From Natronospirales bacterium (GTDB taxonomy: Bacteria; Pseudomonadota; Gammaproteobacteria; Natronospirales; REEB76), in NCBI GenBank assembly GCA_021792635.1, contig JAJYUH010000008.1, positions 56,533 through 120,532 of the forward strand: DNA of 64,000 nucleotides, read 5' to 3'. The notes beneath the pieces were generated by a model. That model did not search any database. It worked only from the letters and a program-made list of their open reading frames with translations, and was not told where the DNA came from. The translations under genes were made by a program, and so were the position numbers. Positions 44,486-57,435 of this stretch are shown piece after piece (position 1 is the first letter of the stretch; the number at the start of each line of letters is the position of its first letter).

Positions 44486-45712
44486 TTACGGTTTCACCCG
44501 CACGGCGGTGCCCGCCACCAGCGGCGCCGCCGCGGAGACGACCACCCGCTGTCCGCGCCGCAGGCCGGTGAGAATCGCAATGCGGTCGCCTTCCAGGTCG
44601 CCGGGCTTGACCGGCACGCGCTCAGCCCGGCCGTGTTCCACCACGAATACGTAACTGCCGCCGTCGGCCCCGTGCAGCGCACTCTCGGGAATCCGCAACT
44701 CGCGGGCCGCAACGGGGTCCGGCAGGTGCCGCGCAGCCTGCAGGAACCGGACTTGTACGCTCATCTGCGGCAGGATGCGCGGATCGAGTCGGTCAAAAGC
44801 GACGCGCACACCGACGCTGCCCTGTTCACGGTCGGCGCTGGGCGCCACGCCGATGACCTGCGCGGGAATGTGCCAGTCCGGATAGGCATCCAGCACCGCG
44901 TCCGCCGGTTGACCGGTGTACACCCGGCGGATGTAGGCCTCATCCACGTTCACATCCATCCTGAGGGAGCGCATGTCCACCAGGGTGCAGATGCCGCGCG
45001 CGGCGGAGGCGCCGGTGACAGGTGATGCGGTGATTTCGCCGGGATGCGCGTAGATTCGCATCACCACGCCGGCGAAGGGCGCGCGGATCACGGTGTAGTC
45101 GAGCCGCACCTGGGCGAGCCGCAGCCCGTCGCGATCCACCCGCACCTGGCGGCGTGCATGTTCCAGGACGGCCGTATCCATGGCCAGCGCCGCCTGGGCT
45201 GCATCGGAGTTCGCGCGAGTCTGAGCCTGCGGCTGGCCGGGGTTCTGCCGCTGCGGAGCGGGCTGATCCGCGGCGAGTTTCGCCTGCGCCTCCTGCACCA
45301 GCGATTCGTCACTGCGCAATTGATTCCGGGCCATGGCCAGCCGGGCGCGAGCCGCCTGGTCATCCAGCCGCGCCAGCACCTGACCCGCCCTGACGGACAT
45401 GCCCTGTTTCACGGGCACCTCGACGATCAGGCCGGAGACTTGCGCCGCCACCCGCGCCCGCCGTCCGGCCACCACATAGCCGGAAGCGCTGAATAGCGGA
45501 GCCCCCGCGGCCTCTCCGCCGGCAGGTGCCGCCGCCACGGTTTGCACCGTCACCGTGTCACCGCTCCGCAGCAGATCCACGGACACGGCGATTGCGGCCA
45601 GCGCCGCGGCGGCAAGTGCGATGCACCATGCGCGCCGCCAGCGGCGGCCGGAGCGGTGTACGGTTTCCGGATCCAGACGCAACGCATTCAAGGCATCGCG
45701 ATTTATCGCCAT
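44486..45712 (-). CDS. Efflux periplasmic adaptor (MacA/HlyD type)
   Basis: 408 residues. One N-terminal membrane helix (CIALAAAALAAIAVSVDLL), a lipoyl/barrel-sandwich domain (SGYVVAGRRARVAAQVSGLIVEVPVKQGMSVRAGQVLARLDDQ), a coiled-coil hairpin (ARLAMARNQLRSDESLVQEAQAKLAADQ) and a beta-barrel/membrane-proximal domain (VIRAPFAGVVMRIYAHPGEITA) form a complete membrane-fusion protein. It links an inner-membrane ABC or RND pump to an outer-membrane channel. ATG 45712 was chosen because it gives a short cytoplasmic tail; upstream codons overlap the EAL gene. The FtsX-type permeases on the same strand are likely partners. Confidence 0.9.
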   Translation of the reverse strand: MAINRDALNALRLDPETVHRSGRRWRRAWCIALAAAALAAIAVSVDLLRSGDTVTVQTVAAAPAGGEAAGAPLFSASGYVVAGRRARVAAQVSGLIVEVPVKQGMSVRAGQVLARLDDQAARARLAMARNQLRSDESLVQEAQAKLAADQPAPQRQNPGQPQAQTRANSDAAQAALAMDTAVLEHARRQVRVDRDGLRLAQVRLDYTVIRAPFAGVVMRIYAHPGEITASPVTGASAARGICTLVDMRSLRMDVNVDEAYIRRVYTGQPADAVLDAYPDWHIPAQVIGVAPSADREQGSVGVRVAFDRLDPRILPQMSVQVRFLQAARHLPDPVAARELRIPESALHGADGGSYVFVVEHGRAERVPVKPGDLEGDRIAILTGLRRGQRVVVSAAAPLVAGTAVRVKP

Positions 45713-45728
45713 CGGATCAGACCGCCTG

Positions 45729-47969
45729 TCATGGTATGGGTACTCCCTCACCCATCCCGCGCCGGGGCACGGGATGGGAATCCGGGTGGGGAAAAATACG
45801 GGACTCCCGCAGCAGGATTCTTGCCTGTTCGGCGGGCACCGGCTTGCTGAACAAGTATCCTTGCACCAGATCGCAGTCATAATCGCGCAACAATTCGTAT
45901 TGCTGTAGCGTCTCGACGCCCTCGCCCACCACCTGCAACCCCAGGGTCTGCGCCAACTGAATCATCATGCCGGTGATTTTGGTGACGCGCGGGTCGCTGC
46001 CGAGGTTACGGATGAATTCCCGGTCCAGCTTGATGGCATAGATCGGCAGGCGCGTGAGATAGTTGAAGGAGGAATAGCCGGTGCCGAAATCATCCAGCGC
46101 GATGTTGATGCCCGGCTGCTTCAGACGGTTGAGCAGATCCACCGCCACGTCCAGGCTCTGCATCGCCAGGGATTCGGTGATTTCCAGCACCAGGCACTCC
46201 GGCGGCAATCCGGTCTGGTCCAGCACGCGCCGCACTTCATCCACCAGGCCCAGATCCAGCACCTGCGAGGGCGACAGGTTGATGCTCATCTGCACCGGCT
46301 TGCCGAACTCGCGGCTCCACTCCGCCGCCTGGGCACAGGCTTTTTCCAGCACCCAGCGGCCCAGCGGCTCGATCAGGCCGGACTGCTCGGCAACGGGAAT
46401 AAAGGTTGCCGGGGGCACGGAACCGAATTCCGGATCGGTCCAGCGCACCAGTGCCTCGAACCCATGCAGATAGCGGTCCGCCACCCGGACGATGGGCTGA
46501 TAGACGAGCGTCAGCTTGCCGTTCTCAACGGCCTTGCGCAGGCGCGACTCCAGGCGCAATTTCGTGGCGGTCCCGGTACGCAGGTTTTCGCTGTACACGC
46601 GATGACCGGATACCTTGTCCTCGCGCGCCTGTACCAGCGCGCTTTCCGCGTTGGCCAGCAGGTCATCCGCCGAAGTGCCATGTTCCGGCGCCACCGCCAG
46701 GCCCATGCTGCAAGGCAGCCGCAACGACATGCCGTGGATTTCAAACGCCTCGCTCAGCACCGACATCAACCGCTTGGCCAGAGCCTCTTCGCTGTCGGAC
46801 TCCGCCAGCGGCATCACCACCGCGAATTCGTTGCTGCCGTTGCGGAACAGGCATTCCACGGAATCCACCAGCGCCAGCAGGCGCTTGGTGACAATGCGCA
46901 GTACGGCGTCGCCGCGGGCAAAGCCGTAGATGCTGTTGATGAGGGGAAACCGTCCCAGGTGGATGAGCACCAGCACCAGCGGCGCGGCAGCGGAGGCCGC
47001 CGGCAGCTTCTCCCGCAACTGGGCGCGCAGTCTGAAAGTATTGCCCAGCCCCGTGACCCGGTCAAAATTCGCCGCGCGGTAGGTCTGCAACTGAGAGCCG
47101 CGCCGCTCGTTCAGGGTGATGAGCAGCCAGTAACACAACCACGCCATGATCACGGCCAGTACGGTGCCGATGGCGATCACCGTCCACGCCACGTCCGCGC
47201 CGGCAACCCGGATGTTCCGCGGCGAGAGCCGCAACAGCCAGGTTTGTCCGCCCACCTTCAGGGTGGATTGCACCGCATAGGCGGCATTCTGCAGCTCGGT
47301 GTCGGAGGCAAAAACCGTATGCCGCCCGTCGCTGAGGCTCAGGCTGTAGTTCCTGGCGAACTGCCGGCTATACGCCTGGCGCATCAGCGCCTCGGGCTCG
47401 ATCACGGCATTGATATAGCCTTCCGCGTGTGCGCCGCGCCGGATCGGCAAATACACGGCGATGCTCCGGCCCCCCGGTTGCAACCGCAGCACGCCGCTGA
47501 CCGCCAGCGCACCGCGGTCCCGCGCCCGGCGGAAGGCCGTCCAGGCATCCGGCGTGTTGCGTATGGCTTGATTCTGTGCGGCCTGATTGGAGCGGGACGG
47601 ATACACCCAGCGGATCACGCCGTCGTTGTCCATCCAGTTCAGCGCCCGGAACGCCGGAAACGCCGACTGGATGGTGGCCGCGTCCGCCTGGAATTGCGCG
47701 TAGCCGGCCGAACCATCGCGTTGCCATTCGCTCCTCAGGATGCGTGCCGCCCCCAAGTAGGCGCGCAACTGGCTGTCCAACTGGTTGGCCACCACCGCGA
47801 GCGCACGCACGCTGTCGGCGCGCTGCTGAGCGCGCTGGTTCCGGGCAAACACCTGCCATGCGAAAATGACCGCGCCGAGGAAGGTGAGCGCCAGCAGCAG
47901 CGAAACCGCCAGCGGCAGCGGCTGGCGCAGGCGCAGAAAACCCCGGGGCGGTTCAGGGGTGGCGTGCAT
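45729..47969 (-). CDS. CHASE-degenerate GGDEF-EAL phosphodiesterase
   Basis: 746 residues. Membrane helix near 20-40, a periplasmic CHASE-like sensor (about 45-265; ALNWMDNDGVIRWVYPSRSNQAA), a second helix, then GGDEF and EAL domains. The GGDEF loop is NGSNEF, so cyclase activity is likely lost. The EAL domain is intact: GFEALVRW, INLSPSQ, LVLEITESL, ALDDFGTGYSSFNYL, IKLDREFIRNL and VGEGVETLQQ. It should degrade c-di-GMP. It lies between the ABC permease and the adaptor genes in the same direction. Confidence 0.93.
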   Translation of the reverse strand: MHATPEPPRGFLRLRQPLPLAVSLLLALTFLGAVIFAWQVFARNQRAQQRADSVRALAVVANQLDSQLRAYLGAARILRSEWQRDGSAGYAQFQADAATIQSAFPAFRALNWMDNDGVIRWVYPSRSNQAAQNQAIRNTPDAWTAFRRARDRGALAVSGVLRLQPGGRSIAVYLPIRRGAHAEGYINAVIEPEALMRQAYSRQFARNYSLSLSDGRHTVFASDTELQNAAYAVQSTLKVGGQTWLLRLSPRNIRVAGADVAWTVIAIGTVLAVIMAWLCYWLLITLNERRGSQLQTYRAANFDRVTGLGNTFRLRAQLREKLPAASAAAPLVLVLIHLGRFPLINSIYGFARGDAVLRIVTKRLLALVDSVECLFRNGSNEFAVVMPLAESDSEEALAKRLMSVLSEAFEIHGMSLRLPCSMGLAVAPEHGTSADDLLANAESALVQAREDKVSGHRVYSENLRTGTATKLRLESRLRKAVENGKLTLVYQPIVRVADRYLHGFEALVRWTDPEFGSVPPATFIPVAEQSGLIEPLGRWVLEKACAQAAEWSREFGKPVQMSINLSPSQVLDLGLVDEVRRVLDQTGLPPECLVLEITESLAMQSLDVAVDLLNRLKQPGINIALDDFGTGYSSFNYLTRLPIYAIKLDREFIRNLGSDPRVTKITGMMIQLAQTLGLQVVGEGVETLQQYELLRDYDCDLVQGYLFSKPVPAEQARILLRESRIFPHPDSHPVPRRGMGEGVPIP

Positions 47970-48136: not shown

Positions 48137-49306
48137 TCACAGTTCCCGGAGCGCCGCGGCCACGGACATGCGGCCGATCCTGACTGCGGGGAACAGGCCG
48201 CCCGCGAACCCCATGAGCAGGGCGAAACCGATGCCGGCCAGCATCAGTTCGGGGGTCACCAGGAAATTGAACGCCACCAGCACGTAATTCCCCAGGGTGC
48301 TGGCGGGGAAGCCGTCGAAAATCCCATAGGCCAGCAGGGCACCGAGGACGCCCCCCAGCAGACCATAGGCGATGCCCTCCAGCAGCACCGCCGTGAGCAC
48401 CGGGGCGCGGCGGAACCCCAAGGAGCGCAAGGTGGCAATGTCCTGGGCACGGTTGAGGACATTGGTGTAGAGAATAGTCACCGCGCCGAAGATAGCCCCC
48501 ACCGCCATCAGCAGGACCACGATACTGCCGGCGTAGGTGATCAGGGTTCCGATCCCCGCCGCTTCCTGTCTGAAAATACCGCTCTCCCTCATTACACTCA
48601 CGGCAAGCCCAGGAGTTCCTTCCAGCGTGTGCTTGAATCCTGCAAATGCGGCCGGAGAAACAAGGCGGACATAAACATTGGTGTACTGATCAGCGGAGCC
48701 GAAAACAGACTGCAGGGCACGGACATCGGTCCAGATTTCCGATTCGTGGACATTGCCGTTATCGGCGAAGATCCCCACCACTTTCCACGGGTGGCCGTTC
48801 AGCGAAAAACGCTCCCCCGGGACAAGCCCCGCAAACAAGTGCTCGGCGCGCCGGCCGACGATCACTTCCCGGGTACCGGGTTTGAACAGGCGCCCCCGCA
48901 GCAGGCGCAGTCCCGGCCAGATGGCCCGGGCATGACTGTCCACGCCGCGCAGCAGCACCGGACCCAGCCGGTTTCCATTTCTCCGTGTCATCTGAACCAC
49001 GACAACAAATTGCCGGCTGACCTGAGGTCCCTCCGGTTCCTGTGCCACACCCGGTGCCTGCCCGATGCGCTGCACCGCCCGGCGACCCAGCGTACCGATA
49101 TTGATGCTGCGCACCATGGCCACGTCGGCGGAGCCGGTGCGCGTCATGGTGGTCTCGAAGCCGTTGCGCATGGCCAGCACGGTTACGAACACCAGCACCA
49201 CGGCCAGGAAACCCGTGACGATCACGGCGGCGGAGGGCAGCCGATGGCGCAGGGTGCTGAGATTCCACGCCATCATCGCCCAGGACTGTCGCAGGAAGGC
49301 CTTCAC
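48137..49306 (-). CDS. ABC transporter permease, FtsX/MacB type
   Basis: 389 residues with the MacB/FtsX plan: an N-terminal helix, a large periplasmic MacB_PCD-like domain (residues about 40-240), then three helices with IGTLITYAGSIVVLLMAVGAIFGAVTILYTNVLNRAQDIATLRSLGFRR and a final LFPAVRIGRMSVAAALREL. Second permease of a heteromeric exporter with the gene upstream at 49308, one base away. Substrate unknown; such pumps export peptides, lipoproteins or toxic compounds. Confidence 0.92.
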   Translation of the reverse strand: MKAFLRQSWAMMAWNLSTLRHRLPSAAVIVTGFLAVVLVFVTVLAMRNGFETTMTRTGSADVAMVRSINIGTLGRRAVQRIGQAPGVAQEPEGPQVSRQFVVVVQMTRRNGNRLGPVLLRGVDSHARAIWPGLRLLRGRLFKPGTREVIVGRRAEHLFAGLVPGERFSLNGHPWKVVGIFADNGNVHESEIWTDVRALQSVFGSADQYTNVYVRLVSPAAFAGFKHTLEGTPGLAVSVMRESGIFRQEAAGIGTLITYAGSIVVLLMAVGAIFGAVTILYTNVLNRAQDIATLRSLGFRRAPVLTAVLLEGIAYGLLGGVLGALLAYGIFDGFPASTLGNYVLVAFNFLVTPELMLAGIGFALLMGFAGGLFPAVRIGRMSVAAALREL

Positions 49307-49307
49307 C

Positions 49308-50462
49308 TCAGACTCCGCGCAGCATCTCGGGCACCCGGATGCCCAGCATTCGCGGCAACGGGATACCGGCGGCTACCAGACTGATCACGAGTGCAATGAT
49401 CAGGCCGGTGAATACAGCGGTCAGCGTGAGATCAAAGGCCCAAAGCACAGAAGCCACTGCGGCATACATGAGCTGTGTCAGCCAGTAGCCGCCCAGCAAA
49501 CCCGCTGCGGCGCCGCTCAGATTCAGCGCCAGGGCCTCCCCCAGGAGCAGCCACACCAGCCGGCGGCTGCGGAATCCCAGGGCGCGCAGCACCGCGAATT
49601 CCGTGAGGCGTTCCTGCGCCGACTGGTACAGGGTGTTGCACACGATGAGCAGCAGGGTGAAGAACACCGTGGCCCCCACCGCCAGCACCAGCAGACTTAC
49701 GTTGCCGAACTGCCGGATCTTGGCCATCATCTCCGCCTCCTGGGACTGGGTGAGGGTGTGTACCGGATCGGCGGCGAACAGGGTGTCAATGGCCCGGGAA
49801 ATTTCCGCACTGCGGCGGGGATCATTGATGCGCTCCACGATCTGGCTCACCTGGTTGCGCTGAACCGCGGGCAGGGCGGCATTCACGTGTCCGTAGTGCA
49901 CCACCAGGAATGACTGGTAATGGGAAGGCACCCTGGCCGCATAGATGCCGTCCAGGCGAAATTGCCAAGTGCCCCGGCCGTCCTGGCGCAGCAGGTCCGA
50001 GTGGATGGTGATGTCATCACCTGTTTTCCAGCCCATCCGGCGTGCCAGTGCCGGTCCGGCGATAGCCCCTTGAGGGTCATTCCTGAAGGCCCGCAGCGCC
50101 ACGGGTGACGGCCGGTAATCCGCGAATACGTTGAATATGGATTCTGACTGGGCGGCGAATACCGTCACAGGCTGCGCGGGCGTGCGTACATATGTCCCGG
50201 GAATTTCCCTGAGGGCGCTGACGGCCACCACACCCGGGACCCGTGCAATCCTGTTTGCATAGTCCAGGGGCATCAAACCACCCTGCACTGTACGGTTGTA
50301 GGTATTCAGCGAGGAAGCGGACACGCCGCCCAACTGTCCCACCACGCCCTGGCGGATGGTCGCCAGCACGCTGAACAGCATGAAAGCCGCCACGATGGAC
50401 AGAAAGGTGAACACCGTGCGCGCCTTGCGCCGCCCCAATGCTCCCCAGATCAGCGAGAACAT
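49308..50462 (-). CDS. ABC transporter permease, FtsX type
   Basis: 384 residues. N-terminal helix MFSLIWGALGRRKARTVFTFLSIVAAFMLFSVLA, a periplasmic domain, and a C-terminal helical part with VGATVFFTLLLIVCNTLYQSAQERLTEFAVLRALGFRSRRLVWLLLGEAL. ATG 50462 was preferred to an upstream GTG. It pairs with the adjacent permease 48137-49306 and the ATPase 50551-51288 to form an exporter; all three are on the minus strand. Confidence 0.91.
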   Translation of the reverse strand: MFSLIWGALGRRKARTVFTFLSIVAAFMLFSVLATIRQGVVGQLGGVSASSLNTYNRTVQGGLMPLDYANRIARVPGVVAVSALREIPGTYVRTPAQPVTVFAAQSESIFNVFADYRPSPVALRAFRNDPQGAIAGPALARRMGWKTGDDITIHSDLLRQDGRGTWQFRLDGIYAARVPSHYQSFLVVHYGHVNAALPAVQRNQVSQIVERINDPRRSAEISRAIDTLFAADPVHTLTQSQEAEMMAKIRQFGNVSLLVLAVGATVFFTLLLIVCNTLYQSAQERLTEFAVLRALGFRSRRLVWLLLGEALALNLSGAAAGLLGGYWLTQLMYAAVASVLWAFDLTLTAVFTGLIIALVISLVAAGIPLPRMLGIRVPEMLRGV

Positions 50463-50550
50463 GCGCCCCACCCGTTTGTCCGCCGCGCCGCAGGTACATC
50501 CATATGGATATCACCCATTCGGGAATGTCCCCGCCGGCCGGTGACGGTGT

Positions 50551-51288
50551 TCATGCTTCCGGCTCCTGGGAAAGCACGCCCTTGGTCATGAACAGGGTGC
50601 GCCGCGCGCGCGCCGCGGCGTGGGGATCGTGGGTCACCATGACCACGGTCTTGCCGTGTTCGCTGTTGAGCAGTTGCAGCAGTTCCAGGATCCCGTCGCC
50701 GGTGCGCCGGTCCAGGTCGCCGGTGGGTTCGTCGCACAGCAGGATGGGCGGATCCATGACGATGGCGCGGGCGATGCCCACGCGCTGCTGCTGGCCGCCC
50801 GAAAGCTCCGCGGGCCTGTACTTCAGGTGCGCTTCCAGTCCCACCACCGCGAGCGCGGCGCGGGCGCGCTGCTGCCGCTCCCGCATACCGAGGTCCTTCA
50901 GGATCAGCGGCAGCGTCACGTTCTGTTCGGCGCTCAATGCCGGCAGCAGGTGGTAAAGCTGGAACACGAAGCCCACGTGACTCGCGCGCCAGTCCGCGAG
51001 GGCGTTGTCGGAAAATTCGTGGATGCGCTGGCCGTCCACGATGACTTCGCCGGCAGTCGGCCGGTCAATGCCGCCCAGGATGTTCATGAGCGTGGTCTTG
51101 CCGGAGCCCGAGGGCCCCATGAGCGCGAGGAAATCCCCGCGGGGGATATCCAGATTCAAAGCTTGCAGCACTTCCACCGTTTCGCTGCCGCGTTTATAAA
51201 TTTTGGTGACGCGCCTCAGGCTGAGCAGCGGCCCGGCGGCAAGTGCCTGGACGTTTCGCGGGGTGCGGATGGACGACAGGTTTCTCAT
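50551..51288 (-). CDS. ABC transporter ATP-binding protein (LolD/MacB-like)
   Basis: 245 residues from ATG 51288; longer starts at 51303 and 51351 exist but add no conserved sequence. Motifs are Walker A MGPSGSGKTT, Q-loop VGFVFQ, signature LSGGQQQRVGIARAIV, Walker B ILLCDEPTGDLD and H-switch VTHDP. The close match to LolD/MacB-type ATPases fits FtsX-like permeases immediately downstream. Confidence 0.94.
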   Translation of the reverse strand: MRNLSSIRTPRNVQALAAGPLLSLRRVTKIYKRGSETVEVLQALNLDIPRGDFLALMGPSGSGKTTLMNILGGIDRPTAGEVIVDGQRIHEFSDNALADWRASHVGFVFQLYHLLPALSAEQNVTLPLILKDLGMRERQQRARAALAVVGLEAHLKYRPAELSGGQQQRVGIARAIVMDPPILLCDEPTGDLDRRTGDGILELLQLLNSEHGKTVVMVTHDPHAAARARRTLFMTKGVLSQEPEA

Positions 51289-51629
51289 GGCGGAGCGGTG
51301 CATCGGTGTTAAGAGCTGGATTGCCAGTCTGCAGTTTATATTCATTCCCATGCGTTCGTCAGGTGGATGCGTCCTCCCCGGGTGCAGGCCTGCCGCCGGA
51401 CAGACGGGAAAAATCCCCGCGCCATTCTTCTCCCCGCCGCCTTACCGGGCGGACATTTCACGGACCGGACGATGAAAGTATGCGCACGCATCTGCGCAAA
51501 CTATACCCTCAACCGGAAAGACCCATAGGTAAAGTTACCGGCTGAAATATGGAATTGTGACCAGCCGTGCAGAAAACGTGACGAAAGCACGGCAGTGCGT
51601 GATGAATCACAGTTAACGCGCTGCCTGTC
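51289..51629. other. Non-coding gap upstream of the ABC operon
   Basis: No gene found. It contains a short palindrome GGTAA/TTACC around 51530-51541 and should hold the promoter of the ABC transporter operon. The LytTR regulator gene ends at 51630, so transcription of regulator and transporter is in the same direction. Confidence 0.5.
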
Positions 51630-52394
51630 CTATTGCATGCCGAGCATGGACAGGGCCTTATCGCGGAAGGAGCGGCTCAGGGTGAGCTCGGTGCCGTCCC
51701 GCAGGATCACCAAATGGTCACCGTTGAACAGCGGCTGCATCTCGCGGATGGTTTCAACGCGCACCAGGGTGGAGCGGTGGATGCGCACGAACTTGCCCGG
51801 GTCCAGTTGCTGTTCCAGTTCGTTCATGGTTTTGCGCACGATGTGGGTATCGCCTTCCACGTGCAGGCACAGGTAATTGCCGGCGCTCTCCACCCAGTCA
51901 ATGGCATCCGCCCGCACGAATACGGTCTTGCCGCCGGATTTGATGGCGATGCGCCCCGCCGGTTCGCCGGTGATCTCCGCCGCGGAAAGCCTTTCCGTCA
52001 CCGGCGCCGGCGGCCGCCGGCTTGCAAAATACTCGCGCACGCTGTCCAGCGCCCGCGCCAGGCGCGCCTCGTCGAAGGGCTTCAACAGGTAATCCACGGC
52101 CCGCACCTCGAAGGCCGGCACCGCGAATTCCTCGAAGGCGGTGATGAACACCACCGCCGGGCGCTTTTCCGGCGGCACCTTGGCGATCATGGCCAGGCCG
52201 CTCAGCTCCGGCATCTGCACGTCCAGCAGCACCAGGTCCGGCTGCATGCGCCCGATGGCCTCCAGGGCCGTCTTGCCGTCGCCGCATTCCCCCACGATCT
52301 CGATGTCCGGCACCGGCGCCAGGTAGCGGCGCGTGCGCTCCCGCGACAGCGGCATGTCGTCAACGATGAGGGTGCGGATCTTCTGCATGGACAT
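51630..52394 (-). CDS. LytTR response regulator (AlgR/LytR type)
   Basis: 254 residues. Receiver domain with RTLIVDDMPLSRERTRRYL, phospho-acceptor aspartate in PDLVLLDVQMPEL, VFITAFEEFAV and AVDYLLKPFDEARL. The C-terminal LytTR DNA-binding domain contains DAIDWVESAGNYLCLHVEGDTHIVRKTMNELEQQLDPGKFVRIHRSTLV. LytTR regulators often control peptide, competence or envelope functions. It overlaps its sensor kinase gene by 35 bases and lies next to the ABC exporter and the peptide operon. Confidence 0.95.
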   Translation of the reverse strand: MSMQKIRTLIVDDMPLSRERTRRYLAPVPDIEIVGECGDGKTALEAIGRMQPDLVLLDVQMPELSGLAMIAKVPPEKRPAVVFITAFEEFAVPAFEVRAVDYLLKPFDEARLARALDSVREYFASRRPPAPVTERLSAAEITGEPAGRIAIKSGGKTVFVRADAIDWVESAGNYLCLHVEGDTHIVRKTMNELEQQLDPGKFVRIHRSTLVRVETIREMQPLFNGDHLVILRDGTELTLSRSFRDKALSMLGMQ

Positions 52395-53490: not shown

Positions 53491-53520
53491 TTGACAAACG
53501 TGGAATCCATCCCCTATGTA
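53491..53520 (+). promoter_or_regulatory. Sigma-70-type promoter of the peptide operon
   Basis: TTGACA (53491-53496) and TATGTA (53515-53520) with an 18-base spacer, 60 bases upstream of the peptide start. The -35 matches consensus exactly. No LytTR site was recognised by eye. Confidence 0.65.
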
Positions 53521-53580
53521 GGTACCGGGCCGTGCGTGCGGAATGGTTCCGGCGCACCGAGGTCCTTGAGGAGAACTTCC

Positions 53581-53754
53581 ATGTCGGACAAGAAAGAACT
53601 GTTGAAGCCCCTGGATGCCGCCACCCGCGAGGTGGTAGAGCAGATCGCCGCGGAGCTCGGTGTGGATCTGGTGGAGATGGAGGAGCGTCTGGAAATGACC
53701 ATCCTGCCGCAATTCTCGTGCTGCGGTTCAAACTCACAGTGCATGCCGGCCTAA
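53581..53754 (+). CDS. Candidate RiPP precursor peptide with CC-x5-C core
   Basis: 57 residues. ATG 53581 has GAGGAG upstream. The first 44 residues form an acidic amphipathic helix (KPLDAATREVVEQIAAELGV, VEMEERLEM), typical of a leader peptide. The tail FSCCGSNSQCMPA carries all three cysteines (47, 48, 54) and would be the core. It is followed by an intrinsic terminator and then by M50-protease-like, acyltransferase-like and radical SAM genes in the same direction. No export or maturation product is proven. A small metal-binding peptide or an unrelated short protein are alternatives. Confidence 0.75.
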   Translation: MSDKKELLKPLDAATREVVEQIAAELGVDLVEMEERLEMTILPQFSCCGSNSQCMPA

Positions 53755-53807
53755 CCATCCAACTCAAGAAGAATTGCAGTGTGATTCGTTCATGCATGAT
53801 GCACACC

Positions 53808-53844
53808 ACGGGCTATTGCCGTGTGTCAATAGCCCGTTCTTTCT
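53808..53844 (+). terminator. Intrinsic (probably leaky) terminator after the peptide gene
   Basis: Perfect 11-bp stem ACGGGCTATTG (53808-53818) and CAATAGCCCGT (53827-53837), loop CCGTGTGT, followed by TCTTTCT. It sits between the peptide gene and the biosynthetic genes. Partial read-through would give much peptide mRNA and little enzyme mRNA. Confidence 0.88.
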
Positions 53845-53879
53845 CCACGGCACTGACGGACTCGGGACCCAAGAAATTC

Positions 53880-55202
53880 ATGCACGCCCCGCCCCACACG
53901 CTTGCTGAAGCAGCCTCGGCGCCGCCGGTGTCGCTGGTGCGCGAAGTGGGCGGGCGTTTCTTCGCCGTGTCGCCGATGCTGGCGGCGCTCATTGACGGCA
54001 TCGCCCGGCGCGCGTCGGCGGCGGAGATTCACGCGCTGCTGCGGCGCGCCCACCCGCAACTGGAACCGCCGCAACTGCACGCCATTCTGTCGGAGCTGTT
54101 CCGGCAATACGGTGTCCGCATCCGGCAGCACAGCAGCGGCGACCGGGCCCGGTTCAGCTTCACGCCGGCGGAATCCGCCGGCAAACACCGCGGCGCGCGT
54201 TATCTGCAGCTCGCCTGCACGCTGCTGCCCGGAAAACCCGCGCATTTTCTCGCCCGCCACCTGACGCTGCTCTACCGGCCCGCGGTCGCCGCCGGTGTGC
54301 TGATTTCGGCACTGCTGCTGCTGCTGGCCTTTATCCGTGAGGACGGCGCACGCTCCGTATCCCTCGCCATCCTCTCGCAGACGGCGGGGCTCACGCCGCT
54401 GCAGTGGCTCGCCGCCAGCGCCGCGATTTTCCTGTCGCTGCTGTTCCATGAACTCGGCCACAGCGCCGCCGCCTGGCGCTTCGGTGTCCGCGTGCGCCGC
54501 ATCGGCATCGGCCTCTACTGGATATTCCCGGTGCTGTTCTCCGACGTGACGGATATCTGGAAACTGCCGCGCCGCCGGCGGCTGGTGGTGGATCTGGGCG
54601 GCGTGTACTTCCAGGCGGTGGCGCTGCTGCCGCTGCTCGGCTTCGGCCTGCTCAGCCGCGAGCCGGGCTGGCGCGCCGCCGCCGCCTTCGTCATCGCCAT
54701 CAACGTGCTCACCATCGTCGTCAACCTGAACCCGTTGCTGCGCTACGACGGCTACTGGATTTATTCCGATCTTTCCGGCATTCCCAACCTGCGCCGGCAG
54801 TCCAACGCCCTGTTGCGCGCCTTGAGCGCCGCGCTGTTCGTGCGCACCGCCCGTACCCGGGCGCCGGCGCTGGTGAAGCGCAATCCCGCGCTGTTCACTT
54901 ACGGCGTCCTGTCACTGCTGTTCAGCGGCTTGTTCATCGCTTATCTGGCGGCGAGCGTGGCGGCCGCCTATGCGGGGCTGCCGCGGCTGCTGGCGACCCT
55001 CGAAAACGCACCGCACGGCGTCGGCGCCTGGCACCTGTCGGCCGGAATGCTGCAGGCGCTGCTCTCGGGCCTGTGGTCGCTGGTGCCGCTGGCGGTGATG
55101 CCGCTGCTGATCCTCTACGCCCTGAGTGAACTCTGGCTGCTGCTGGTGCCGGGCGCCGGCCGGCGCCCGGCTGCGGGATTCCGCAGAATTGAAATTCCCT
55201 GA
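53880..55202 (+). CDS. PqqD-like/M50 membrane metalloprotease-like protein
   Basis: 440 residues. Residues about 15-85 resemble a PqqD-like RiPP recognition element (VSLVREVGGRFFAVSPMLAALIDGIARR, EIHALLRRAHPQLEPPQLHAILSELFRQYGV). A polytopic M50 domain follows with the zinc motif HELGH at 190-194 and NPLLRYDGYW at 284-293, which supplies the second metal ligand. Such 'putative peptide zinc metalloproteases' often occur in peptide-secretion and RiPP clusters. It probably recognises and cuts, or helps export, the upstream peptide. The start was set at ATG 53880; codons before it overlap the terminator. Confidence 0.85.
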   Translation: MHAPPHTLAEAASAPPVSLVREVGGRFFAVSPMLAALIDGIARRASAAEIHALLRRAHPQLEPPQLHAILSELFRQYGVRIRQHSSGDRARFSFTPAESAGKHRGARYLQLACTLLPGKPAHFLARHLTLLYRPAVAAGVLISALLLLLAFIREDGARSVSLAILSQTAGLTPLQWLAASAAIFLSLLFHELGHSAAAWRFGVRVRRIGIGLYWIFPVLFSDVTDIWKLPRRRRLVVDLGGVYFQAVALLPLLGFGLLSREPGWRAAAAFVIAINVLTIVVNLNPLLRYDGYWIYSDLSGIPNLRRQSNALLRALSAALFVRTARTRAPALVKRNPALFTYGVLSLLFSGLFIAYLAASVAAAYAGLPRLLATLENAPHGVGAWHLSAGMLQALLSGLWSLVPLAVMPLLILYALSELWLLLVPGAGRRPAAGFRRIEIP

Positions 55203-55216
55203 CGGTGAGGCACGCC

Positions 55217-56293
55217 ATGCACAGTGTTGCCGATTACGAACGCGACCGGGAACTGGTCCGGCAACGGACCCGTGCGCGGCTCGCGGGCCGCGCGGGCCAG
55301 CCGGACGAGGAACAGGCTCTGCAGCAGCACTATCAGTGCATACGCACCAATCTGCTGCACCTGCTGGAGGCGGACGACAATACGGAAAACGCCGCCCTGG
55401 CGCAGGCGGTGCTCCTGGAAACCGCCGTCACCACCGACCTGGACCTGAGCGTGCGCTACATCGCGCCGCTGCTGGCCGACGCCACCGTGGTGGATGCCGC
55501 GGGCGTGCTGCAGGCGGATCGCGCGCATCTGCATGTCCTGTACCACACCGGACCCTACTGGCTGCCGATCTTCGCCGCTCTGCGGGCGGGTGTAGCCTGC
55601 GCCTGCTGCGTTCCAACCTCCATGCCCAGAGTCCGGGAGAATTTCCTGCAGCTCCACGCCTGCCTGACGCGGGAACTCACGCTGCCCGGCAAACTGCGGA
55701 TCATTGACATGGATACCCGATCCTTCGCCGTCAGCGCGCGCCAGGCCATCGAACGCGGCTACAGCCTGTTCCTATTCATGGACGGCTTCACCGGCACCGC
55801 CCACGAAGCGAACCCGCGACGCGACGTGGAAGTGCCGTTCCTCAACGCCGAAATCACCTGCAAGACCACCGTCGCCACGCTCGCGCTGCTGCTCGAGGTA
55901 CCGCTCATCGCCACCCACGCACGCCGCACCGGGCCGCTGCAGGCCCGCCTCACCTTCGAACCGCTGGCCGTCGCCACGGATACCGCATCGCGGCGCGAGC
56001 AGGCGGCGCAACTGAGCGCCGCGATCTACACGCGCCTCGCCGGGCTGCTGCGCGAAGCACCGGCGCAGTGGGAACCATGGCAGTATTTCCACGCCTATCT
56101 GTCCGACCGCTATCTCGCGCAGTTGAAGTCCGGCGAGATTGGCAAGCGCTTCCGGCACGACACCGAGAGTGAGCGCTTCTATTTCAGCCCCGCCGGCGAC
56201 GTGATGGTGGACCGCTACACACTGCGCAGTTACGGCGTGCGCCGCAAATCCGATTCTCCCGCCGGCGGCGATGCCGCCACACTGCATTCCTGA
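55217..56293 (+). CDS. Lipid-A-acyltransferase-like protein, highly diverged
   Basis: 358 residues. The middle part (LHVLYHTGPYWLPIFAALRAGVACACCVP, then LFLFMDGFTGTA and ALLLEVPLIATHARRTGPL) resembles the HtrB/LpxL fold. The catalytic H-x4-(D/E) motif is altered: HTGPYW has no acidic residue at the +5 position. It may therefore be a non-catalytic or peptide-acting relative. No membrane anchor is evident at the N terminus. GAGG precedes ATG 55217; the gene is 14 bases after the M50 gene and 17 bases before the radical SAM gene. A role in peptide maturation is inferred from position only. Confidence 0.7.
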   Translation: MHSVADYERDRELVRQRTRARLAGRAGQPDEEQALQQHYQCIRTNLLHLLEADDNTENAALAQAVLLETAVTTDLDLSVRYIAPLLADATVVDAAGVLQADRAHLHVLYHTGPYWLPIFAALRAGVACACCVPTSMPRVRENFLQLHACLTRELTLPGKLRIIDMDTRSFAVSARQAIERGYSLFLFMDGFTGTAHEANPRRDVEVPFLNAEITCKTTVATLALLLEVPLIATHARRTGPLQARLTFEPLAVATDTASRREQAAQLSAAIYTRLAGLLREAPAQWEPWQYFHAYLSDRYLAQLKSGEIGKRFRHDTESERFYFSPAGDVMVDRYTLRSYGVRRKSDSPAGGDAATLHS

Positions 56294-56310
56294 AACCCAA
56301 GGAGCCTCCC

Positions 56311-57435
56311 ATGAGCACCGTCCAGCCGCTGCGTCCCTTGCATGAGCTGCGATCCTTCAGCCCGGAAACCCAGTTCGAGATTCTCGACGCCCTGAGCCGC
56401 CGCAGCTTCGAGCTCACCCTGAGTCCCACGGAGCACTGCAACTTCCGCTGCAGCTACTGCTACGAGGATTTCGCCATCGGCCGCATGCGCCCCGCGGTGA
56501 TCGCCGGCGTCAAAAAACTGCTGGCCCGGAAAATCCCCGGTCTGCGCCGTCTGCGGCTGTCCTGGTTCGGCGGCGAACCGCTGCTGGCGGCCAATCTGTG
56601 CCTGGACATCGCCGGCTACGCCATGCAGCTCTGCACAACCCACGGCGTGCAACTGACCGGGGCCGTCACCACCAACGGCTCGCTGCTGGACAGGGCACTC
56701 GCCGGGCGCTTCGCGGCGCTCAACCATACGCAGTTCCAGATTTCGCTGGACGGCGACCAGCCCTACCACGACCGCGTTCGCCTGCGCGCCGACCGCAGCG
56801 GCTCTTTCAACCTCATCACCGGCAACCTGCTGGCGCTGCGCGACACCGACCTGCAGTTCAAAATCACGCTGCGCCTGCATGTGAGCGGCGATAATCAGGA
56901 CTCGCTGCGTTCCCTGCTGCGCAGGCTGCACGGCTGGTTCCACGGCGACCGCCGCTTCGAGATCGGCTTCCATCCGCTGAACGACCTGGGCAGCCCCAAC
57001 AAGGATGCATACGTGCCGGTAAGTCACGAGGACTACGCCCGCAGGGTGCGCGAACTGCAGCAGGAAATGCCCCGGGAGCTGGCTGCCCACGACATGATCT
57101 GCGCCAACGGCGAGTCGGTGCACGTGTGCTATGCCTCGAAGCCCAACGCGCTGTTCGTCCGCGCCGACGGCCGGGTGGCGAAATGCACCGTGGCGCTGGA
57201 CGAGCGGTTCAACCATCTGGGCAGGCTCAACGCCGACGGGGAAGTGGAGATTTCCGAACGCCTCATGCACAAATGGACCGTGGGCCTGAGGACCCTGGAT
57301 CCCATTGACCTGATGTGCCCGCTGCACAAGGGCAGGGAGTATTTTGAATCGCAACAGGACTCCGCGGCCGCGATGCCGGTGGAATCGGTGTTTCCGCCGA
57401 CAGGACTCGCGGACGGCGACAGGCCTGATGCGTGA
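56311..57435 (+). CDS. Radical SAM/SPASM-like peptide maturase
   Basis: 374 residues. The radical SAM cluster motif C-x3-C-x2-C is at 43, 47 and 50 (EHCNFRCSYCYED), then SWFGGEPLLA (SAM binding) and TNGSLLD. Additional cysteines at 264, 273, 292 and 336 suggest a SPASM or Twitch-like auxiliary iron-sulfur site. Enzymes of this type form thioether or carbon-carbon crosslinks in RiPPs. AAGGAG lies seven bases before ATG 56311. Last gene of the plus-strand operon; convergent with an MFS transporter. Confidence 0.9.
   Translation: MSTVQPLRPLHELRSFSPETQFEILDALSRRSFELTLSPTEHCNFRCSYCYEDFAIGRMRPAVIAGVKKLLARKIPGLRRLRLSWFGGEPLLAANLCLDIAGYAMQLCTTHGVQLTGAVTTNGSLLDRALAGRFAALNHTQFQISLDGDQPYHDRVRLRADRSGSFNLITGNLLALRDTDLQFKITLRLHVSGDNQDSLRSLLRRLHGWFHGDRRFEIGFHPLNDLGSPNKDAYVPVSHEDYARRVRELQQEMPRELAAHDMICANGESVHVCYASKPNALFVRADGRVAKCTVALDERFNHLGRLNADGEVEISERLMHKWTVGLRTLDPIDLMCPLHKGREYFESQQDSAAAMPVESVFPPTGLADGDRPDA

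Follow-up and report, generated by a model that had tools for sequence, protein, structure and literature searches.

A conserved operon combining a Cys-containing precursor peptide with an M50 protease, an LpxL-fold protein and a radical SAM enzyme: a likely new class of ribosomal peptide pathways

Results and discussion

The DNA analysed here (the window) comprises 64,000 nucleotides of a Natronospirales bacterium (GenBank assembly GCA_021792635.1, contig JAJYUH010000008.1, positions 56,533 to 120,532 of the forward strand). It carries a compact four-gene operon, most likely encoding a pathway for a ribosomally synthesized and post-translationally modified peptide (RiPP): a precursor peptide, an M50 membrane protease, an acyltransferase-like protein of the LpxL/PatA fold (ACT) and a radical SAM enzyme. 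The genes, their conserved association, a leader motif shared by the precursors and the predicted fold of ACT are established, and the operon very likely represents a real and undescribed RiPP class. A class with this gene set is regarded as highly probable; the full mechanism, crosslinking by the radical SAM enzyme, acylation by ACT and release by M50, is somewhat favoured. The original prediction, made from the sequence alone, knew of no RiPP class with these genes. No RiPP pathway with an LpxL-fold enzyme or this gene set was found among the matches listed in the literature searched, neighbouring topics included; this literature mostly excluded subscription journals, and an earlier description is possible. 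A text search for the peptide motifs returned irrelevant matches only.

The precursor gene and its hairpin

Open reading frames and their translations placed the four genes at the positions and in the order originally claimed. The precursor (53581..53754, + strand; MSDKKELLKPLDAATREVVEQIAAELGVDLVEMEERLEMTILPQFSCCGSNSQCMPA) was preceded by AGGAGA upstream of its ATG and had, as described before, 57 residues with all three Cys in the tail: a leader with an EMEERLEM motif was followed by a CC-x5-C core (...FSCCGSNSQCMPA). A protein search returned seven clusters, all of exactly 57 residues, the window's own and six at 84-91% identity. Variable positions among them were concentrated in the core (7 of 14, vs. 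4 of 43 in the leader), with CCG and C-M-P invariant. A congeneric genome (G006) encoded a 56-residue homologue (55% identity) ending in TCCLANQNCIPS, also CC-x5-C, and over the 56 aligned codons differences fell 21, 7 and 28 times at codon positions 1, 2 and 3. This pattern, together with the 57-residue clusters, indicates that the precursor frame is a real coding gene. Conservation of the frame, a point on which the original prediction had been made to depend, was thus observed both in the six other clusters and in the coding-type substitutions of G006.

The strong hairpin predicted behind the peptide gene (53808..53837, + strand) was borne out by a pattern scan (0.5 chance sites expected) and by its fold energy (-17.6 kcal/mol, z -2.44 with respect to shuffled sequences). 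A strong stem-loop lay within 110 nucleotides behind each of the 15 precursor genes examined (assessed without shuffling; loci L151 and G006 were outside this set), and four stem-loops compared with shuffled sequences gave z values of -2.4 to -5.5. In G006, a similar hairpin with a T-run followed the precursor and preceded the M50 gene. The structure may act as a terminator or attenuator, which would allow the precursor to be produced in excess over the enzymes. The promoter of the original prediction was not confirmed: a sigma-70 scan gave 0 matches, TTGACA being present with a poor downstream hexamer.

Conservation of the association

Genome contigs were scanned with an alignment of the radical SAM enzyme, giving at least 80 loci. 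M50 and ACT were both present (tblastn) in 3 of the 80 listed, from Oleiagrimonas (L021), a Gemmatimonadetes metagenome-assembled genome (L069) and Myxococcus vastator (L099). Profile searches recovered strong ACT members (more than 80 bits) in at least 3 of 195 Myxococcota genomes, at least 2 of 200 Gemmatimonadota genomes and at least 7 of 147 genomes in the family of the L021 genome; these counts include the query genomes and are lower bounds, since at most 6-13 candidates were scored per genome. Nine new ACT loci were chosen on ACT score alone; M50 was found near ACT in all nine, and a radical SAM homologue in six. The other three (L149, L155 and L156) had no radical SAM homologue nearby and none close in their genomes (profile search, best 97 bits). 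In G006, ACT and the radical SAM gene lay at the edge of a contig other than the one with precursor and M50. The operon is patchy, as M50 occurred in just 2 of the 11 genomes of the genus, and an ACT search of 321 genomes of the window's own class (E 1e-12) returned the window's genome alone, the ACT-bearing G006 being either not drawn or missed.

Weak ACT matches (about 35-47 bits; 27 of 30 in Myxococcota, 3 of 5 in Gemmatimonadota and 2 of 9 in the family of genome G095) were taken for ordinary LpxL on score alone, their context unviewed, and excluded from the counts. Among Acidobacteriota, 19 of 297 genomes matched the ACT profile; 18 of these matches ended at position 285-313 and looked like ordinary LpxL, and none was counted. 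One acidobacterial fragment (L162) reached the ACT C-terminal domain and was adjoined, as judged by eye, by a MacB-like permease; its 3.4 kb held no M50 gene or peptide, and it was not counted.

A peptide with the leader motif lay beside ACT and M50 in all 13 contiguous loci viewed, so that the synteny between peptide and enzymes proposed earlier as a check was indeed conserved. Leaders read ELE(D/E/S)RLE(M/F/L) in most loci. A strict leader pattern combined with at least two Cys identified 14 short open reading frames in 11 of the 13 ACT loci (in L151 and L156 the precursor was recognized by inspecting the reading frames), vs. 0 of 11,225 in the 77 listed radical SAM loci lacking ACT. This pattern was defined after the precursors had been seen, and was adopted because a looser one gave 3 chance matches in the control loci. 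Precursors contained ...VEALESRLEMTDVTAAAAQCCTVNGGCNSNSK in L021, ...LELEDRLEFADTCNIYCPQ... in L069, ...IELEDRLELAGRCNGRCDS... in L099, ...LEERLEFAMCCDYQCGPNTNCDGTC... in L150, ...ELEQRVEFSCCGG... in L156 and ...YCCECVGxxMC... in L149 and L155. A general mark of a RiPP, a short precursor in which the leader is conserved while the core varies, linked to maturases, was observed, a modified product being predicted. Lipids and membrane proteins are common substrates of LpxL-fold and M50 proteins, and the three enzymes might instead produce or alter a lipid or lipoprotein beside a peptide linked by chance; the contrast between ACT and control loci and the coding-type substitutions in the precursor make this very improbable.

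ACT and M50 form the constant core of the system, with the radical SAM enzyme, and arginases plus a Cupin_8/JmjC-type oxygenase, as clade-specific additions. In L149 and L155, the unusual CCECVGxxMC core stood beside M50 and ACT only, the simplest setting for the role of ACT alone. L021, with just one M50 and one ACT place (tblastn), carried a second precursor (L021:13889-14137) some 3 kb outside the operon; it shared the leader motif, and its core was of the C-x5-C form (SCTVDVQC). L151 (7437-13980) was a decaying version, in which a likely transposase gene interrupted the radical SAM gene, arginase genes survived as remnants and the core lacked Arg.

The M50 protease

The M50 gene (53880..55202, + strand) encodes a site-2-type membrane protease with HELGH and NPLLRYDGYW motifs and an N-terminal RRE-like (RiPP recognition element-like) region, a predicted leader peptidase. 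It matched PF02163 at 35.2 bits (cutoff 27.2), a model that the M50 proteins of L099 and L149 did not reach; the HExxH and NPxxRxDGYW region was invariant in the four M50 proteins aligned. Its best NCBIfam model was NF041824 (daptide_HExxH; 124 bits, cutoff 300, residues 20-390), which gave 87-105 bits, also below cutoff, with three relatives. Of the "PqqD-like/M50" protein originally described, the M50 part was confirmed; the PqqD-like part had no Pfam match, and what speaks for it is the match to the daptide RRE-peptidase model, the alignment to which starts at residue 20. Daptides, in the portions of PMC10036551 consulted, have an RRE fused N-terminally to a site-2 protease and leaders with ELExMEAP, and MpaP removes the leader. 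Leaders here are similar to ELExMEAP, and the same recognition and cleavage role is therefore inferred for M50: its N-terminal region would bind the [LM]ExR[LV]E[MFL] leader, as thought for the MpaP-type RRE-peptidases, and the membrane protease would likely cut behind the leader, freeing the core.

The LpxL-like protein

ACT (55217..56293, + strand; reading frame open from GTG 55205) was, as originally predicted, LpxL-like, only just reaching PF03279 (22.7 bits, cutoff 22.3) and having a predicted LpxM/PatA fold. Acyltransferases of the LpxL/HtrB type use HX4(D/E) as a catalytic dyad, and E127 of LpxM is named as catalytic in the title of a PDB entry. HTGPYW takes the place of this motif in the window's ACT. 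A structure prediction suggested an RRE-like C-terminal domain on the ACT of L099, the only fold supporting an RRE; the window's ACT aligned with only the first strands of this domain in its relatives. Homology between the C-terminus of ACT and the N-terminus of M50 was considered and found no support by hhalign.

A bolder reading, at a little under an even chance, takes an RRE-guided LpxL/PatA-fold peptide acyltransferase as the mark of the new class: a lipid A fold would have been recruited to acylate Cys-core peptides, losing HX4(D/E) because thiol or amine acceptors need no such acid, beside a daptide-type M50 leader peptidase and with radical SAM crosslinking or arginase/oxygenase tailoring added by phylum. 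ACT would likely add the acyl group to a Cys thiol of the core or to the N-terminus freed by M50. The acid was absent, with W or R in its place, in all 15 ACT proteins checked, which argues against simple LpxL-like catalysis. Together with the RRE-like domain of L099, this absence also suits a pseudo-acyltransferase that sits in the membrane as a lipid sensor or as a scaffold binding the leader, the product being crosslinked and unlipidated. Such a role is possible, if unlikely, given that the fold is retained, that 14 aligned ACT sequences all keep the His, the Gly and the DGxxG motif, pointing to a conserved site, and that a thiol or amine acceptor may not require the acid. A modified, perhaps lipid-bearing product, as first proposed, agrees with the conserved loci, crosslinking and acylation both being predicted steps.

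The radical SAM enzyme

The last gene (56311..57435, + strand) encodes a radical SAM enzyme (PF04055, 44.8 bits) with a CX3CX2C motif. Its assignment was correct in the original prediction; the count of extra cysteines was not, as six were found instead of four, three of which (C273, C292 and C336, in the C-terminal part) were invariant in 21 of 21 aligned sequences. NCBIfam matches to TIGR04463 ("rSAM vs C-rich", 111.7 bits) and PapB (101.3 bits) were both under cutoff; the enzymes of L099 and L069, with a longer C-terminal Cys set, reached 203 and 210 bits for TIGR04463. Thioether formation appears the likeliest chemistry, and the enzyme, a predicted thioether-forming maturase, would build thioether links starting at the core Cys, as in ranthi- or sactipeptides. 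Another genome belonging to the same class has a related radical SAM gene, and about 250 nucleotides downstream of it an 85-residue open reading frame with four Cys (L003:1098-1355) looks like a different Cys-rich precursor.

The arginase clade

Cores with RCNGRC occurred together with arginase homologues in five loci (L099, L148 and L152-L154; PF00491 match established for L099), a myxobacterial/xanthomonad clade with repeated arginase-family genes. An oxygenase-like neighbour was also present in L148 and L152-L154 (Cupin_8/JmjC-like established for L148 only). Core Arg was found in 1 of 8 loci without an intact arginase (L155); the association between arginase and Arg (Fisher p = 0.005) is not independent evidence, because the five arginase loci are related. 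One form of the arginase was longer by about 115 residues at its N-terminus. The known peptide arginases belong to PF12640 (PMC12703449, in part); those found here matched PF00491 instead, and conversion of Arg to Orn, with hydroxylation, is possible in this clade through an arginase family distinct from PF12640. The acyl acceptor would then perhaps be Orn.

Relationship to known systems

The window's M50 protein is homologous to the RRE-fused M50 peptidase of daptides, at a score below the equivalog cutoff, and the leader motifs are similar, but daptides differ in their invariant C-terminal Thr (the window precursor ends in Ala, and among the others read only that of L155 ends in Thr). No oxidative decarboxylase, aminotransferase or methyltransferase was found among the four operon genes, which instead combine a Cys core with an LpxL-fold protein. 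Lipolanthines, goadvionins, lipoavitides, selidamides and nostolysamides resemble the predicted product in bearing an acyl group on a ribosomal peptide, and ornithine-lipidated selidamides resemble the arginase clade in its potential for Orn. However, these are lanthipeptides and are acylated by GNAT enzymes (PMC13060382, in part), whereas here ACT has the LpxM/PatA fold and neither GNAT nor lanthionine synthetase was among the four genes. Ranthi- and sactipeptides (PapB, TIGR04463) have a radical SAM enzyme of the same superfamily and a Cys-bearing core, but the scores obtained here were far under the family cutoffs, and none with M50 and LpxL-fold genes was found in the literature searched. 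Radical SAM enzymes of these classes carry SPASM auxiliary clusters; in the window's enzyme the candidate residues for such clusters are the three conserved C-terminal Cys. From LpxL/HtrB, LpxM and PatA, ACT differs in lacking the HX4(D/E) acid, in the predicted RRE-like domain of its relative and in lying beside a precursor peptide.

Export and regulatory neighbours

Next to the operon, on the - strand, were a LytS-type sensor histidine kinase divergent from the peptide gene (PF06580; 52360..53295, start inferred, reading frame open to 53712), a LytTR response regulator (51630..52394), an ABC ATPase probably belonging to a MacB-like exporter (50551..51351), two MacB/FtsX-like permeases (49308..50471 and 48137..49306) and a HlyD/MacA-like membrane fusion protein (44486..45880; its domain begins at residue 140, and the position of the true start is uncertain). 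The MacAB-type exporter and the kinase/LytTR pair would export and sense the product. MacB/FtsX or HlyD genes also flanked L069, L150, L151 and L152 among the loci scanned; the single neighbour tested in L021 was TPR-like.

Nearby export genes and small Cys cores would also fit a product other than a lipopeptide: the peptide could be the scaffold on which a small molecule is made that binds metal or resembles a cofactor, as with pyrroloquinoline quinone or the pearlins. Epipeptide and pearlin pathways employ M50 enzymes, and in pearlins TglG/TmoG cleave modified residues off scaffold peptides (sections of PMC10885120). This role is improbable here, as no aminoacyl-tRNA-dependent ligase was among the four operon genes and the cores differ in sequence around invariant Cys, in contrast to a single residue at the C-terminus.

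Significance

If the proposed acylation is correct, LpxL/PatA would join RiPP biosynthesis as a maturase fold, offering a non-GNAT route to ribosomal lipopeptides from under-explored Gram-negative bacteria. Membrane-tethered steps (acylation, intramembrane cleavage and MacAB-type export) would be combined in one compact, easily moved operon, and acyltransferase function without the canonical acid would become a testable question.
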